From assembly GCF_023715655.1 (NCBI RefSeq), contig NZ_JAMBON010000005.1:62001-126000 (forward strand): a stretch of DNA of 64,000 nt, given 5' to 3'. Shown here in pieces: positions 1,650 through 37,707 of the stretch. Both the position numbers and the translations under genes were made by a program. The notes beneath the pieces are model-generated. The model saw only the letters and a program-made list of their open reading frames with translations. It ran no database searches and was not told the origin of the DNA. Each line of letters begins with the position of its first letter. The first letter of the stretch is position 1. This DNA comes from Oceanobacillus luteolus (lineage in GTDB: Bacteria > Bacillota > Bacilli > Bacillales > Amphibacillaceae).

Positions 1650-2495
1650 ATGAATCAACTAAAGTTAAAGAAAATGCTAGAATCATTTTTACTAGAAGAT
1701 ATTGGTGATAATGACTTAACAAGCAACTCTATCTTTCCTATCGAACAACAAGGTAAAGGGATTTTCATTTCGAAAGAGGATGGAATTATTGCAGGACTTG
1801 AAATCATCCAAGCTGCTTATCATTTGCTCGATCCACAAATCGAAGTTAAATTGCATTTTGCTGATGGAGATAGGGTCAATCAAGGAGATACGATTGCGGA
1901 AGCTTTTGGTCCAGTAAGACCTATCCTGACAGGCGAACGTGTCATTTTAAATTTACTCCAGCGGATGAGTGGAATCGCCACATTAACGAAAACATGTGTA
2001 GAGACTTTAAATGATCCCTCCATTCAAATCTGTGATACAAGAAAAACAACGCCTGGCCTAAGGATGCTGGAGAAATATGCAGTCACCGTTGGCGGTGGGA
2101 AAAATCATCGTAACGGCTTATATGATGGTGTCATGATTAAGGATAATCATATTTCTTATTGCGGATCCATTACAAAAGCAGTTGAGCGAGTACGTGAATC
2201 TGTGGGCCATATGGTAAAAATCGAAGTTGAGACGGAAACGCGGGATGAAGTGTTAGAAGCCGTTGAAGCAAATGCAGATGTCATTATGTTTGATAATCGC
2301 AAACCTGAAGAAGTGAGGGAATTTGCCAAACTTGTTCCACCTCAAATTATAACCGAAGCTTCTGGAGGGATTAATCTATCAAATCTAGCATCTTATGCCA
2401 ATACCGGAGTTCGATATATATCTTTAGGTGCATTGACGCACTCGGTTAAAGCGCTAGATATTAGTTTACAAGTCAAAGAAGGAAACAAAAAATAA
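1650..2495 (+). CDS. nadC: NadC, quinolinate phosphoribosyltransferase (decarboxylating)
   Basis: The 281-residue product has the full family length. It makes nicotinate mononucleotide from quinolinate and phosphoribosyl pyrophosphate in de novo NAD synthesis. Family motifs are present: LLEDIGDNDLTS at the N-terminus, the LLQRMSGIAT helix, the DTRKTTPGLR active-site loop, KDNHI, and EVE/FDN acidic residues of the barrel. The start has a good AAGGAG site. The usual partners nadA and nadB are not in this window. Instead the gene is followed, 26 bases later, by a TRAP transporter in the same orientation. Regulation by the divergent NiaR is likely. Confidence 0.95.
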   Translation: MNQLKLKKMLESFLLEDIGDNDLTSNSIFPIEQQGKGIFISKEDGIIAGLEIIQAAYHLLDPQIEVKLHFADGDRVNQGDTIAEAFGPVRPILTGERVILNLLQRMSGIATLTKTCVETLNDPSIQICDTRKTTPGLRMLEKYAVTVGGGKNHRNGLYDGVMIKDNHISYCGSITKAVERVRESVGHMVKIEVETETRDEVLEAVEANADVIMFDNRKPEEVREFAKLVPPQIITEASGGINLSNLASYANTGVRYISLGALTHSVKALDISLQVKEGNKK

Positions 2496-2521
2496 TTTCC
2501 GACTTACAGGAGAGCTAGAAC

Positions 2522-3526
2522 ATGAACAAAAAAACATTCATATCTATTCTTTTACTGCTATTCCTATCTATTCTAGCTGGCTGCGAAGAAGAAACAGAAG
2601 GTTCTGATTCGAACGGCATCACTACTACTATCAAGGGCGGTCGGACAGGTGGTGCATGGGCAGTATTTACAGAAGGAATTGCCGAATCGGTCCGTCGTGA
2701 AAATGATTCCTCCTATATTACAGTGGAACCTGGCAGTATAGTAGAGAATCCTCCCATGGTAGGTCTCGGCAGGGTTCCATATGGTTTGTCTTATGCGATG
2801 ACCGCCTATGCTGCTTATCGAGGAGTAGAGCCATACGATCAAGCTTTTGAAGATATTCGTGCGGTTAGTGTTGTTATTCCAGCTAATTATTATCAATTCT
2901 TTGTGAGAAAAGATGTGCCATACGATTCACTTCATGACATTGTGGAAAACCAAATACCAATTCGTTTGGCTGTGAACCAAAAAGGATCAGATGCTGAGCT
3001 GATCACCCGGGAAACATTCCATCATTTTGGGATAACCTATGAAAATATCATTTCATGGGGAGGGTCAGTCGATTATCTGTCCGGGTCAAAGGCGTTTGAA
3101 ATGATGGCGGATGGAAGAATTGACGCTGCTGGAAATGCCGAGTCTGCACCTTCAGGTAATATTATTGAAGCCTCTACAACCATCGATTTAAAAATGGTTT
3201 CCTTGGATAAGGAAACTATTGAAACGGTATCCGAAAAACTCGGAATGGAGCCCAACACGATTCCTGCTGGGACCTATGACTTTCAAAAAGAAGACATTGA
3301 TACGGTCAGTACCCCAGCAATTCTTATCGTTCATAAGGACGTTTCTGACGAAGAGGTGTACGCAGTTACAAAGAGCATCTACAACAACTTGAATTATTTA
3401 CAAACCGTACATGATGAATTTAAAGAATTGACAGAGGAAAGTATGATAAACGTTGGAGAGCTCCCTCTCCATCCAGGAGCCGAGAAGTTTTATAAAGATA
3501 TCGGAATACTTGCTAAGGATGAATAA
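2522..3526 (+). CDS. TAXI-family TRAP transporter solute-binding lipoprotein
   Basis: The 334-residue product is a lipoprotein with a hydrophobic signal and an LAGC lipobox (Cys21). The mature part is a TAXI-type binding protein in normal domain order: an N-terminal GGRTGGAWAVFTEGIAE segment, a central region, and a C-terminal PLHPGAEKFYKDIGI motif. It should capture an organic substrate outside the membrane and deliver it to the permease encoded next. It lies between nadC and the permease with short gaps (26 and 34 bases), so the three genes form one operon. The substrate is not known from sequence; the linkage to nadC suggests a pyridine dicarboxylate or another NAD precursor (inference). 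Confidence 0.88.
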   Translation: MNKKTFISILLLLFLSILAGCEEETEGSDSNGITTTIKGGRTGGAWAVFTEGIAESVRRENDSSYITVEPGSIVENPPMVGLGRVPYGLSYAMTAYAAYRGVEPYDQAFEDIRAVSVVIPANYYQFFVRKDVPYDSLHDIVENQIPIRLAVNQKGSDAELITRETFHHFGITYENIISWGGSVDYLSGSKAFEMMADGRIDAAGNAESAPSGNIIEASTTIDLKMVSLDKETIETVSEKLGMEPNTIPAGTYDFQKEDIDTVSTPAILIVHKDVSDEEVYAVTKSIYNNLNYLQTVHDEFKELTEESMINVGELPLHPGAEKFYKDIGILAKDE

Positions 3527-3560
3527 ACATCTTATTTTGCCAAGAAGGAGTTAGTTCCTT

Positions 3561-5504
3561 ATGAACATAAAAGGATTTGTTGTAGGTTGGTTTGGTTATG
3601 GATACCGACGGCAATTATCATCATTCCACATAAAAATATTCAGCTGCACGGCCTTCATTTTATCTATATACCAAGTCTGGTCTGTAATCTGGGGAAAACT
3701 AGATCCGTTGAACCAGATGGCCATTCATCTATCTGTAATATTGGGCCTGACATTTTTGATGTACGGCTATTCAAGAAAACATAAAATCAAGCAAGCACCC
3801 ACTCTATATGACTATGCCGCTGCACTGTTAGCATTATCTTCAGGAGTGTATTTTTCAGCTCAAGCAGAACGGATTTCAGTAAGGATTCCTATCCTAGACC
3901 CATTAAGTACACTTGACCTCTTTTTTGGCGTTATTTTTGTGGTCTTAACGATAGAAGCTGCTCGAAGAACGATGGGATTTCCAATCATTGCAATTGTGTT
4001 TATTGGCCTTGGTTATAGTATATGGGGACATCATTTTTCAGGTTTATGGCACCATCGTGAATTTTCCATTTCAGAGATCATTAATGATGTAGCCTATACC
4101 TATAATGGAATTTGGGGATCTCCACTCTCAGTTGCTGCAACATTTGTGTTTATGTTCCTTTTATTTGGTGCATTTTTGAAGCATGCCGGTGCGGGTCAAT
4201 TTTTCTTTGATCTATCGGCCGCCATTGCAGGAAGAACAAAGGGAGGTTCAGCTAAAGTAACAGTCTTAGCCAGTGCATTCTTTGGTTCCATTTCCGGGAG
4301 TCCGACAGCCAACGTCGTTACGACTGGGTCCTTTACTATTCCAGTACTCAAAAAAAGTGGTTACAAACCCTCCATGGCAGCAGCAATTGAAGCAGCTGCA
4401 TCAACAGGAGGGAGTATTTTACCGCCAATCATGGGGTCTTCCGCTTTCTTGATGGCGGCAGTTACACAAATCCCCTATGGAACAATCGCGATAGCTGCCG
4501 TCATCCCTGGGATCCTTTATTATGTATCCTTACTTGTGATGGTCCATTTGGAAGCTGTACGATTGGATTTACCAACACCTGAGGAAGAAAGTATTCCACG
4601 ATTAAAAGAGGTATTGATAGAAGGTTGGTATTATTTTATTCCATTAATTGTTTTAGTGTATTTTCTCATGAGTGGATACAGTGCATCAAGGACAGGATTT
4701 TACAGTATTCTTGCAGTTATTCTTGTCAGTTGGTTCCGTAAAGACACACGGATTGGATTCAAAACAGCATTCCACGCGATGGTCGACGGCGCAAAGTCTT
4801 CCATTCCGGTAACCGCTGCCTGTGCCGCAGCAGGAATGATTATCGCAGGAATCATGTCTACAGGTCTCGGTGGAAAGCTGACAAGTATTGTTCTAGGGTT
4901 CACCGACGGACTACTCGTCCCTACCCTATTTTTAGTGATGCTCATTTGTATTGTTTTGGGGATGGGAATGCCAGTAGCAGCTGCCTACATATTGACAGCC
5001 ATGTTGGCGGCTCCAGCTTTAATCGGATTAGGTGTCTCACCACTTGCAGCACATTTGTTTATCGTGTACTTTTCTATTTTTTCTGCAATAACACCACCAG
5101 TTGCAGTTGCAGCCTACGCAGCTGCAGGAATTGCAGATGAAAATCCGAATACTGTCAGTATCGAGGCTGTTAAGCTAGGAATTGTTGGTTTTATTATCCC
5201 ATTTATGTTTGTTTTGAAACCAGCTCTACTGATGGAAGGTTCATGGACGGAAATTATAATAGCAACATTTACCGCAACACTAGCAATTATTGCACTTGCA
5301 GCAGGAACAATCGGATTTCTGAAAACAAGCACTACCATCTGGGAACGGATAATATTAATTGTAGCTGGCTGTATGTTCGTATACCCTAGTTTCTTATTGA
5401 ATGGAATCGGAATCATTTTATTGATTACAGTATTCTTGTTCCAACTGAAACGAAGGATCGGAAGTTCAGTTTCTAAAGGAGCACAAAATATACCAAGAAT
5501 TTAA
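3561..5504 (+). CDS. TRAP transporter permease, fused small and large subunits (4TM/12TM type)
   Basis: The 647-residue product is an integral membrane protein with many hydrophobic segments. The N-terminal four helices correspond to the small DctQ-like subunit. The remainder is the large DctM-like channel subunit, recognisable from GSISGSPTANVVTTGSFTIP, the EAAASTGGSILPPIMGSSAF motif, and a second repeat with MGMPVAAAYIL and FSAITPPVAVAAYAA. Such fused permeases work with TAXI binding proteins and normally use a sodium gradient. An AAGGAG site precedes the ATG. A strong terminator follows, so the operon nadC-TAXI-permease ends here. Confidence 0.92.
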   Translation: MNIKGFVVGWFGYGYRRQLSSFHIKIFSCTAFILSIYQVWSVIWGKLDPLNQMAIHLSVILGLTFLMYGYSRKHKIKQAPTLYDYAAALLALSSGVYFSAQAERISVRIPILDPLSTLDLFFGVIFVVLTIEAARRTMGFPIIAIVFIGLGYSIWGHHFSGLWHHREFSISEIINDVAYTYNGIWGSPLSVAATFVFMFLLFGAFLKHAGAGQFFFDLSAAIAGRTKGGSAKVTVLASAFFGSISGSPTANVVTTGSFTIPVLKKSGYKPSMAAAIEAAASTGGSILPPIMGSSAFLMAAVTQIPYGTIAIAAVIPGILYYVSLLVMVHLEAVRLDLPTPEEESIPRLKEVLIEGWYYFIPLIVLVYFLMSGYSASRTGFYSILAVILVSWFRKDTRIGFKTAFHAMVDGAKSSIPVTAACAAAGMIIAGIMSTGLGGKLTSIVLGFTDGLLVPTLFLVMLICIVLGMGMPVAAAYILTAMLAAPALIGLGVSPLAAHLFIVYFSIFSAITPPVAVAAYAAAGIADENPNTVSIEAVKLGIVGFIIPFMFVLKPALLMEGSWTEIIIATFTATLAIIALAAGTIGFLKTSTTIWERIILIVAGCMFVYPSFLLNGIGIILLITVFLFQLKRRIGSSVSKGAQNIPRI

Positions 5505-34647: not shown

Positions 34648-36606
34648 TTAAACCGTTGCCTTCATTTCCATGTTCCCTGAATCATCGTCTCTTCTTTTTT
34701 GAATAAAGTAAATACCGAGAACAAGTAGAGCACCTATTGCACTACTTACGAAATCTGGAATAATCAGGATAATTCCGGCAGCAAATAAAATAAGTCTTTC
34801 CCAAAGATAAGAATCCCGCATGAAGTGGCCAATTACAGAACTGCTGACAGCCATCATTCCGAGAAGCGCAGTTATTAATCCTATAATTAGTGGAATCACC
34901 TCTACATTTACTAATACGAGTATTTCATTGTATACAAATATATACGGTACGATAAATGCAGCGATTGCCAACTTAACAGCAATGACTCCACTTTTGAACG
35001 GATTAGCTCTCGCAATCCCCGCTCCGGCATATGCCGCAAGACAAACAGGTGGTGTAATATCCGCTGCAATTCCAAAATAGAATACAAACATATGTGCAGC
35101 GATAGGAGCGATACCGAATTCATTGATCAGTACAGGAGCTGCAACCGTCGCTGTAACCACATAATTCGCTGTTGTCGGCAACCCCATTCCAAGAACAAGG
35201 CATGCAATCATCGTAAAGAATAAGGCGAATATCAATATCCCCCCGGACAGTGCTATAATTCCAGAGGCGAACTTTGCACCAAGACCGGTGATACTGACTA
35301 CCCCTGCAATAATGCCAGCTGTACCAACCGCTGCAATTACCGCCAAAGCTACACGTGCCCCTTGTTCAAGAACATATATAAGCTTCTTCAGGTTCATTCG
35401 TGACTCTTTATCAATAAAACTGACGATAAAGGCTCCAGCAATCCCCATGATTGCGGCTCTTTGCGGGGTAAAACCTATCATAATCGTCCCGATTATAATC
35501 ACAACCGGTAAGAGCATATACCAATTTTGAGCCATAAGTTTCCGGAAACTTGGCAAATCTGCTTTAGGCAAACCGTATATTTTTAATTTTTTTGCTTCAA
35601 AATGAGTTCCGATAAAGATACCAGTAAAATAAAGAATGGCTGGAATAATTGCGGACAGCATAATGGTCGCGTAGGATACACCTAAATACTCCATCATGAT
35701 AAATGCGGCTGCCCCCATTAGTGGTGGCATAATTTGTCCACCTGTAGATGCCGATGCTTCTGTTGCCGCTGCGAATTCAGGTTTAAATCCTGACTTTTTC
35801 ATCATCGGAATGGTGAAAGATCCGGAGGCAACTGTATTACCTACTGAACTTCCAGACACCATTCCTTGCAATGCACTAGCAGTAACCGCAGCTTTAGCCG
35901 TTCCACCAGTAAATCTTCCTGTAAGTGCAAACGCAAGGTTATTAAAAAACTCCCCGATTTTAGTATTCACAAGAATTACTCCGAAAAACAGGAATAGAAA
36001 AATAAACTTTGCAGAGATTTGTATCGGTGTGCCGAACACACCACTTTCCTTATACCAAATATCAGTAGCAAGTCTTTCGAAAGCAAACCCTGGATGAGAT
36101 AGGATTTGCGTAGGAACAAAATTACCGAATAAAGCATAGAGCAACGTAATTGATGCAACAATTACAATCGGAACACCTACTGTTCTTCTTGTCGCCTCCA
36201 ACAATAACAAAATTCCGAGTACTGAAATGATCACATCCATGGTGCTGTAACCGGAAATTCTACTCTGTAAAATTGAATCAAAGAAAATAATTTTATGATA
36301 GGTCACATACATTGCTGTAAATGCTAAAATAACATCATACCATGGTACTGTCTTTTGTTTTTTATGCCAACCTTTCTTTGCAGGAAATAGTAAAAATATA
36401 ATACCTAAAGCTGTACCTAAATGAACAGCACCCTGCATTTGGGAAGGAAGTGTACCGAAGTAACCTGTATAAAGATGAAAAAGGGTTAAAGAAACACCTA
36501 AAAATGTTACTACCCAAGCCCACCGGCCAATTTTCTTCCGATAGTTTTCTTCTTGACTATATTTCTCTAATATTTCGGTAGTATTCAGCTCCTTGTTTTC
36601 ATTCAT
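34648..36606 (-). CDS. TRAP transporter fused permease (4TM/12TM type), second copy
   Basis: The 652-residue membrane protein has the small-subunit helices at the N-terminus and the large channel part after them. The motifs are GMVSGSSVGNTVASGSFTIP, ATEASASTGGQIMPPLMGAAAF, LGMGLPTTANYVVTATVAAP and YFGIAADITPPVCLAAYAGAG. It is clearly homologous to the permease at 3561 but divergent. It is transcribed with, and downstream of, the unusual TAXI receptor gene, after a 109-base gap holding a hairpin. The substrate is unknown. Sodium coupling is expected for the family. Confidence 0.92.
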   Translation of the reverse strand: MNENKELNTTEILEKYSQEENYRKKIGRWAWVVTFLGVSLTLFHLYTGYFGTLPSQMQGAVHLGTALGIIFLLFPAKKGWHKKQKTVPWYDVILAFTAMYVTYHKIIFFDSILQSRISGYSTMDVIISVLGILLLLEATRRTVGVPIVIVASITLLYALFGNFVPTQILSHPGFAFERLATDIWYKESGVFGTPIQISAKFIFLFLFFGVILVNTKIGEFFNNLAFALTGRFTGGTAKAAVTASALQGMVSGSSVGNTVASGSFTIPMMKKSGFKPEFAAATEASASTGGQIMPPLMGAAAFIMMEYLGVSYATIMLSAIIPAILYFTGIFIGTHFEAKKLKIYGLPKADLPSFRKLMAQNWYMLLPVVIIIGTIMIGFTPQRAAIMGIAGAFIVSFIDKESRMNLKKLIYVLEQGARVALAVIAAVGTAGIIAGVVSITGLGAKFASGIIALSGGILIFALFFTMIACLVLGMGLPTTANYVVTATVAAPVLINEFGIAPIAAHMFVFYFGIAADITPPVCLAAYAGAGIARANPFKSGVIAVKLAIAAFIVPYIFVYNEILVLVNVEVIPLIIGLITALLGMMAVSSSVIGHFMRDSYLWERLILFAAGIILIIPDFVSSAIGALLVLGIYFIQKRRDDDSGNMEMKATV

Positions 36607-36678: not shown

Positions 36679-36706
36679 AAGGGATCTACTAAATTTAAGA
36701 TCCCTT
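36679..36706 (-). promoter_or_regulatory. Intra-operon hairpin between receptor and permease genes
   Basis: AAGGGATC (36679-36686) pairs perfectly with GATCCCTT (36699-36706). It lies just after the receptor stop codon. On the minus strand it is followed by TCCTACT rather than a U-run, so it probably adjusts receptor versus permease levels instead of ending transcription. Confidence 0.55.
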
Positions 36707-36714
36707 AACTGTAA

Positions 36715-37707
36715 TTATTTTGCTAAATCATCCATACTCTCAATTCCTGTATTTTCGCGAGTGATAATCTGAATAACTTCCGGATAGATGTGCCCAATAA
36801 ATGCAGCATTCTCCACCGCTTCTCCTTCAAAATCACCTTCCCCATTCACAGCAGCTTGAGCAGGAACATGCACCGTCATCCCTAAATCAATGTTTCCATC
36901 GCGGATACCTACCATGTTCTCGATTGAAGCACCAGTTTCTGTGTTGGTGATATTTATACCATCAATATGGTTATTCCAAATATTGGCCATCTCTCCGCCA
37001 AGTGGATAATAAGTACCTCCTTGACTTCCCGTTCCTAAGATAAGTTCAGATTTTTCTTCAGATACATTCAACTCAGCCACCGGGTTATCAATCGTTAATC
37101 CTTGTTCTTCATAGTAACGCTTTGCTCCCGGGTGGATCGGCAGGCCCTCTGCTCCATTTAGTGCATTTTCCAATGTCATATGGGCAGATTGAGCATGGGT
37201 ATTTTCATTTGCATTCTCTACCATGCTCTTAGCAAGTTCATATCCGAGTTCTTCAGAAATCGTGTCTGTACTTGCCATCAAGATCGCATAAGCAGTTACC
37301 GTCTCCACATCTGAATCCATGAAGTCATAGGTCCCATTTGGTATCGTATAACGACGATAACCACTATTTTCTTCAATATGTGCGATTGCTTCATCGGATA
37401 ATCCAAGCAATTTTACATCTCCAGCAGAAGCTTGCAAACTCTCAATACTTCCGGCAGGCAATCCTAGAATTCCAATGGATACATCGATGTTTCCATCCTG
37501 CACTCCATCCGCCGCATCACCAAAACCCTCTTGATAAGCTGTGTAGTCATCTTCCCCTATTCCATATGCCTCTAGAATTAATTTGGAGGCTGAATTTGTT
37601 TCACTAGCAGGTGGTCCAATCGCAATGTTCTTTCCCCCACCGCCACATGCAGCGAGAACTAACAAACTTACCATTACAAGCAGAAACAACAGTCTCTTTT
37701 TCAACAT
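36715..37707 (-). CDS. TAXI-family TRAP receptor lipoprotein with circularly permuted domain order
   Basis: The 330-residue product has a normal lipoprotein signal (LLVLAACG, Cys21). The mature part then begins directly with GKNIAIGPPASETNS, which in ordinary TAXI proteins is the middle of the chain, and runs to the family's C-terminal motif LPIHPGAKRYYEEQGL at about residue 200. A short linker (NPVAELNVSEEKSE) follows, then the segment that normally comes first (LILGTGSQGGTYYPLGGEM), ending in IESMDDLAK and a stop. In standard members DDLAK is followed at once by GKNIAIG-like sequence, so the break is seamless. Total length is normal. The protein is probably functional with the adjacent permease (inference). 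Confidence 0.88.
   Translation of the reverse strand: MLKKRLLFLLVMVSLLVLAACGGGGKNIAIGPPASETNSASKLILEAYGIGEDDYTAYQEGFGDAADGVQDGNIDVSIGILGLPAGSIESLQASAGDVKLLGLSDEAIAHIEENSGYRRYTIPNGTYDFMDSDVETVTAYAILMASTDTISEELGYELAKSMVENANENTHAQSAHMTLENALNGAEGLPIHPGAKRYYEEQGLTIDNPVAELNVSEEKSELILGTGSQGGTYYPLGGEMANIWNNHIDGINITNTETGASIENMVGIRDGNIDLGMTVHVPAQAAVNGEGDFEGEAVENAAFIGHIYPEVIQIITRENTGIESMDDLAK

Follow-up and report, generated by a model that had tools for sequence, protein, structure and literature searches.

A circularly permuted TAXI-type TRAP receptor in Oceanobacillus luteolus and its relatives in Bacillota and Pseudomonadota

An open reading frame of 330 codons plus stop, located in the window (the whole 64,000-nucleotide stretch of Oceanobacillus luteolus DNA that was analysed), encodes a TAXI-type TRAP solute-binding protein in which the two parts of the chain have exchanged places, and sequence comparison confirms it as a circular permutant. 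The standard chain was cut in lobe 2, before the first lobe-2 strand, and the old termini were joined by a linker of about 20 residues. The permuted protein very probably acts as receptor for the fused TRAP permease whose gene lies directly downstream, and would close as a trap on a C5-C6 dicarboxylate before passing this ligand to the permease; the operon appears to have passed later into Halomonadaceae and Alcaligenaceae. Taken as a whole, the explanation of a permuted, re-anchored TAXI receptor that serves the adjacent permease and traps a C5-C6 dicarboxylate is considered highly probable, the ligand step by itself having about an even chance.

Order of the halves and position of the breakpoint

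According to the sequence-only reading, a normal lipoprotein signal is followed by a chain that starts in the middle of a TAXI protein, runs through the usual C-terminal part, crosses a linker and finishes, at MDDLAK, with the usual N-terminal part. The frame has the coordinates and all the motifs quoted there (Table 1). It reads, in order, the LVLAAC signal, four glycines, a segment opening with KNIAIGPPAS, LPIHPGAKRYYEEQG, the linker LTIDNPVAELNVSEEKSE, a segment opening with LILGTGSQGGTYYPLGG and a terminal ESMDDLAK; in this protein the four glycines (GGGG) are the only residues between Cys21 and the first strand. Both Pfam NMT1_3 (PF16868; 217.1 bits against a cut-off of 27) and TIGR02122 TRAP_TAXI (228.7 bits against 84.35) match the protein in two stretches of swapped order. 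The best stretch pairs protein residues 25-203 with profile positions 111-289 of 289, the C-terminal part of the profile coming first. The protein thus scores above the curated cut-off without a collinear N-to-C match to the TAXI profile and, as the stretches are swapped, it is filed as a permuted derivative, related to the family by descent and not by architecture. The receptor at 2522-3526 of the window, put forward as an internal control, is indeed in standard order, with a single collinear stretch to NMT1_3 and to TIGR02122.

The two halves had also been described as complete and their join as seamless, which agrees with the alignment to VcGluP (8s4j/9ibo). Query residues 25-204 correspond to chain positions 117-298 and residues 222-329 to positions 6-116, so that the two VcGluP pieces abut at chain 116/117 with zero residues lost. 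In VcGluP, domain 1 comprises residues 29-115 and 268-328, the hinge strands residues 116-131 and 255-267, and domain 2 residues 132-254 (PMC11574862). The breakpoint at VcGluP 144/145 (chain 116/117) falls in domain 2, in the loop preceding the first lobe-2 strand. The arrangement is that of a circular permutant: two complete parental segments are swapped, the old termini are joined and the new termini lie at one site. The opposite order is found in every standard family member, the closest ones at about 61-64% identity included.

Table 1. Features of the permuted receptor gene and its downstream region in the window (coordinates refer to the forward strand)
Feature	Position	Strand	Basis
Permuted TAXI solute-binding protein gene	36715..37707	-	profiles, VcGluP alignment, equal order in about 57 named loci elsewhere
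Lipoprotein signal peptide, aa 1-20, ending LVLAA/C	37648..37707	-	sequence motif
Lipidated Cys21 (predicted, by motif)	37645-37647	-	sequence motif
B segment, aa 25-203, C-terminal two thirds of a standard chain: beginning of lobe 2, second hinge strand and C-terminal portion of lobe 1	37099..37635	-	NMT1_3 111-289; VcGluP chain 117-298; domain limits from PMC11574862
Conserved linker, aa 204-219, LTIDNPVAELNVSEEK, running from the old C-terminus into the old N-terminus	37051..37098	-	clade alignment
A segment, aa 220-330, ending DDLAK, N-terminal third of a standard chain: lobe 1 core and first hinge strand	36718..37050	-	VcGluP chain 6-116
Perfect 9-bp inverted repeat AAGGGATCT/AGATCCCTT, receptor-permease intergenic	36679..36706		read from sequence
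Cognate fused TRAP permease, 652 aa, TRAP_fused	34648..36606	-	TIGR02123, 714.7 bits against a cut-off of 320.7; DctM PF06808

Distribution, single origin and selection

A scan of the full collection, with one genome per species, gave 79 loci, and sorting every TAXI frame by the order of its halves yielded 67 permuted and 49 standard rows. About 57 of the permuted rows are distinct named loci, the rest being the window locus itself or loci from the search for relatives, several of which duplicate named ones. Permuted loci are 63-90% identical and occur in Bacillaceae, Caryophanaceae, Halomonadaceae and Alcaligenaceae. Their carriers include Oceanobacillus, Virgibacillus, Lentibacillus, Psychrobacillus, Sporosarcina, Bhargavaea, Aquibacillus and others in Bacillota, and Halomonas, Vreelandella, Billgrantia and Bisbaumannia as well as Castellaniella, Paenalcaligenes and relatives in Pseudomonadota. 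In even samples, the permuted order was found in 8 of 399 Bacilli, in 9 of 121 genomes from the family of Halomonas sp. ML-15, in 4 of 121 from the family of Castellaniella and in 2 of 398 genomes sampled across Pseudomonadota, a count that includes the genome around which this last sample was built. A tblastn search of the plasmid collection PLSDB at 1e-40 returned no match.

These relatives bear directly on whether the window locus could be an assembly artefact or a rearranged repeat. The assembly is fragmented (206 contigs), and orthologues of equal order had been suggested as a check. They were found in independent assemblies, which excludes chance and assembly error as the source of the order. 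The breakpoints agree within a few residues throughout the clade, with a new N-terminus at xxIAIGPP (or VAIGP) and a new C-terminus at or just past a DDL motif (DDL(AK) or like). The approximately 57 named loci come from assemblies unrelated to one another, among them a complete chromosome (NZ_CP035925.1, locus L081), and a further relative is a single-contig genome (G012); this agreement already refutes an artefact; moreover, purifying selection spans the join and leftover half-copies are absent within 600 bp of either flank. The probability that the order is artefactual is negligible.

Two observations were made in passing. Oceanobacillus damuensis carries two permuted receptor-permease operons, with a class-III aminotransferase upstream of only one of them. 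Near-identical TAXI loci occur in metagenome-assembled genomes labelled Desulfonatronospira and Candidatus Pacearchaeota from one sample series (T1Sed10), and the archaeal one is probably a binning error.

The history of the permuted gene was traced in receptor trees built with the halves restored to standard order. In a tree of 107 proteins, all permuted proteins lie on one side of a branch with an SH-aLRT value of 98. When two closer standard cousins were added (88 proteins), the permuted clade reached a bootstrap of 100 and an SH-aLRT of 99, and a single origin was recovered in 200 of 200 bootstrap trees. The clade is nested within the standard-order TAXI tree (100/99), which shows its descent from TAXI proteins, and as the permuted proteins are surrounded by standard-order rows only, with a standard outgroup, the permuted order is the derived one. 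The nearest standard cousins, 61-64% identical, belong to Bacillota (Fredinandcohnia, Robertmurraya, Bacillus timonensis and two further genomes). The trees show a single permutation event in Bacillota, affecting an ordinary TAXI gene whose partner was already a permease of this type. The Halomonadaceae and Alcaligenaceae proteins form two separate groups inside the Bacillota permuted clade, a placement best read as two transfers from Bacillota to Pseudomonadota. In the permease tree, built without three pseudomonadotan loci (L074, L076 and L080) that are probably wrong-frame picks in GC-rich DNA, the same split between permuted and standard partners appears with a support of 100 and the permeases of the permuted clade form one clade. 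The matching splits indicate that receptor and permease have probably travelled together.

When the protein was compared by tblastn with the 600 bp that flank each permuted gene on either side, no remnant of a tandem duplication appeared, and nothing therefore singles out duplication followed by deletion over fission and fusion. A chimaera of two paralogues was considered and rejected, because each half finds its closest relatives in one shared standard-order group (L016, L096-L106), with far lower scores for the other paralogues. Among nine pairs of close relatives, in which synonymous change is unsaturated, dN/dS lies between 0.01 and 0.06 in segments B and A alike; each half is under strong purifying selection, and the permuted protein is in use. 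The lobe-2 ligand-loop motif GPPGSGT has become GPPAS[ET]T in nearly all permuted members. The earliest-branching permuted protein, from Aquibacillus sediminis (L089, 6001-6990), retains GPAGSGTQ. As it alone keeps the motif, the ligand loop, which lies beside the new N-terminus, was altered after the permutation.

Fold, lipid anchor and other permuted receptors

AlphaFold2 modelled the permuted protein (50 permuted sequences) as a bilobed structure with a pLDDT of 89.6 and a pTM of 0.81. A standard cousin (L098) modelled as control reached a pLDDT of 87.4, its residues 1-42 lying below 50. Leaving out the signal-peptide helix, each model contains 21 helices and strands that match after rotation, elements 1-8 of the standard protein corresponding to 14-21 of the permuted one and elements 9-21 to 1-13. 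Both long hinge strands correspond as well (residues 134-146 and 301-317 in the permuted model, 265-277 and 127-143 in the standard one). From this order of elements and from the confidence of the model we infer that the permuted chain takes the normal two-lobe trap fold. After permutation, lobe 1 would be formed by one continuous stretch of chain and lobe 2 by two, the opposite of what holds for the standard protein.

A structurally different receptor, or a domain-swapped dimer in which the halves do not refold into one trap, would be the alternative. Sequential aligners place the control on six TAXI crystals with Z-scores of 32-35 over about 290 residues; for the permuted model, about 61% identical to the control, they return no full-length TAXI crystal and align only some 200 columns with TAXI chains. 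Its best sequential match is OpuAC (Z 13.5, 214 residues), and TAXI crystal chains are absent among the 50 VIA rows listed, an absence from a list that is no proof of another fold. Against this alternative stand the confident monomer model, the correspondence of all 21 elements with the standard cousin and the conserved linker, which joins old termini that both lie in lobe 1 of VcGluP; it is accordingly judged very unlikely, and a single refolded trap is preferred. The structure matches of the standard control include ProX- and OpuBC-type proteins, and in the models the permuted TAXI protein appears to stand to TAXI as OpuAC stands to ProX.

The linker, 19-22 residues from YYEEQG to xGTG, is present in 60 of 60 permuted proteins, while the C-termini of the closest standard cousins carry nothing comparable. 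A lipobox is present by motif in the window protein (LVLAAC) and in 55 of the 60; five Alcaligenaceae members have A.A signal-peptidase I sites in its place, and their predicted mature protein begins at the first lobe-2 strand (AHA/AKIAIG). The spacer from the cysteine to the first strand has a median of 4 residues (range 4-14) in the 55 permuted lipoproteins and of 23 in 45 standard ones, where it is predicted to be disordered (control L098, residues 1-42 with pLDDT below 50). On the models, the lipid anchor would have shifted from lobe 1 to lobe 2. With a lobe-2 anchor and a tether of about four residues, the receptor would lie close to the membrane, probably in a more fixed orientation over the permease.

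Why the permuted order has persisted can be read in two ways. The permutation may have been functionally neutral, an accident fixed once that left tethering and docking unaffected, a reading to which we give slightly less than an even chance and under which the core identification stands. TpMglB-2, another permuted binding protein, works normally (PMC4990184), the Alcaligenaceae members are unlipidated yet permuted, and a permuted gene does not easily revert. The short tether of lipidated members compared with standard ones, the change of the ligand loop after the event in nearly all members except the earliest branch, and the presence of the operon in two pseudomonadotan groups nested in the Bacillota clade argue against neutrality. 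More speculatively, and in our view rather improbably, the permutation was selected for re-anchoring: lobe 2, tied by about four residues, would make the receptor a permanently docked, oriented subunit of the permease and not a tethered shuttle, lobe 2 resting fixed on the permease and lobe 1 making the opening and closing movement. The five Alcaligenaceae proteins that lack a lipid anchor imply that the new anchor point cannot be the sole reason for the persistence of the permuted order. In the Halomonadaceae (L062-L087), the lipidated cysteine is followed by Ser or Gly and the tethers are short. Under E. coli sorting rules, many of these lipoproteins would go to the outer membrane, which together with the short tether would put the inner-membrane permease out of reach.

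Permutation of binding proteins is itself already known. OpuAC is a reported circular permutant of ProX, both binding glycine betaine (PMC2395249); this pair likewise represents a natural permutation of a bilobed binding protein with a changed lobe order, but these are ABC-transporter proteins less than 24% identical to each other, so that neither when the change occurred nor in which direction is clear. TpMglB-2 (Tp0684) of Treponema is a permuted glucose-binding lipoprotein for which membrane anchoring was suggested to have driven the topology (PMC4990184). Like the TAXI clade it is permuted, lipid-anchored and conserved family-wide; it differs as a type I sugar receptor of an ABC transporter with an added fourth hinge crossing and a permuted part only 13% identical to its counterpart. 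BP0403 of the TAXI-GltS system (PMC12344293) is a TAXI lipoprotein of unusual architecture too, but with extra N-terminal domains, a GltS partner and a solute-binding domain described as standard. The window protein is homologous over both halves to TAXI proteins such as VcGluP (8S4J) and TtGluBP (1US5), with about 30-43% identity to typical members and about 61-64% to the nearest standard cousins, and is likewise paired with a TRAP_fused permease; its clade differs from standard TAXI in the swapped halves, the linked old termini and the anchor on lobe 2 with its tether of about four residues. The searchable open-access literature (subscription papers lying outside this scope) describes no permuted TAXI or TRAP receptor, in agreement with the sequence-only reading, and two recent TAXI papers do not mention permutation by that word. 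The permuted TAXI clade thus represents an independent case in another transporter class.

Reported permuted binding proteins are so diverged that the how and why of their origin are hard to test. Here, permuted and parent-like proteins are about 61-64% identical, are paired with permeases of one kind and partly have a neighbour gene in common, and the tree clearly shows in which direction the order changed. This provides a natural experiment on the docking of TRAP receptors to the membrane subunit and on the relevance of the anchor point of the trap. The clade is young enough for the membrane-anchoring idea to be tested in it, and its unlipidated Alcaligenaceae members provide a counter-example from within. 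Profile annotation calls the permuted proteins ordinary TAXI, and structure-guided inferences on termini, tethers and tags would consequently be wrong for this clade.

Transport partner and ligand

A fused TRAP permease is the next same-strand gene in 53 of the 57 permuted loci. The intergenic inverted repeat of the window is possibly a transcript-processing hairpin that would set receptor above permease levels. A sensory receptor, acting in signalling and not as a transport subunit, could be envisaged from Virgibacillus sp. MSJ-26 (L044, 4352-8567), whose permuted gene lacks an adjacent permease and is followed on the same strand by a PAS-GGDEF-EAL gene (999-residue frame), and from the DcuS/DcuR-like two-component genes near some Halomonas copies. 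Given the near-constant presence of the permease and its co-divergence with the receptor, a signalling role has a very small probability, and the protein is best regarded as a transport receptor. A possible TAXI-permease fusion in one genome (G062, 1040-aa frame) was rejected, the receptor there being separate and in standard order.

Indications on the ligand come mainly from the Halomonadaceae, where 17 of 19 loci have, within about 6 kb, at least one gene of the route from lysine or 2-aminoadipate to 2-oxoglutarate. HglS occurs in 10 halomonad loci (NF049974, 739.8 bits against a cut-off of 550 for the one tested), the D-2-hydroxyglutarate dehydrogenase YdiJ in 9 (1505 bits against 1350), a class-III aminotransferase resembling glutamate-1-semialdehyde aminomutase in 9, and piperideine-6-carboxylate dehydrogenase in 4 (816 bits against 730). 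In 10 genomes chosen for adjacent HglS, this gene is single-copy and lies a few kb from the single permuted gene. An aminotransferase of this kind also lies beside one Oceanobacillus copy and beside several of the standard cousins. The glutamate contacts Y45, S75 and E125 of VcGluP are retained in the window protein, but Q93, which binds the amino group, is replaced by V279 in the permuted clade; the nearest standard cousins also have V. On these data, a C5-C6 dicarboxylate similar to glutamate is favoured with about an even chance, the best candidates being 2-aminoadipate, 2-oxoadipate and 2-hydroxyglutarate. Lysine-catabolism genes adjoin only one of 33 permuted loci of Bacillaceae and Caryophanaceae, so that this assignment may not hold for the window; its likelihood is lower there, the neighbours being uninformative. 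A YeiH-like membrane protein (PF03601; 38065-39222, reverse strand), encoded upstream on the same strand, was set aside since it is not conserved beside other permuted loci.

In two Oceanobacillus loci (L042, 9359-11803, and L053), the receptor and permease are followed by a membrane protein that looks like GltS by eye, without matching a Pfam or NCBIfam model at the cut-offs applied, and by an amidohydrolase-like protein. Elsewhere in the window (1650-5504, forward strand), a standard-order TAXI receptor and its fused permease lie directly downstream of a NadC-like frame (quinolinate phosphoribosyltransferase), and a link of this transporter to NAD precursors is possible.
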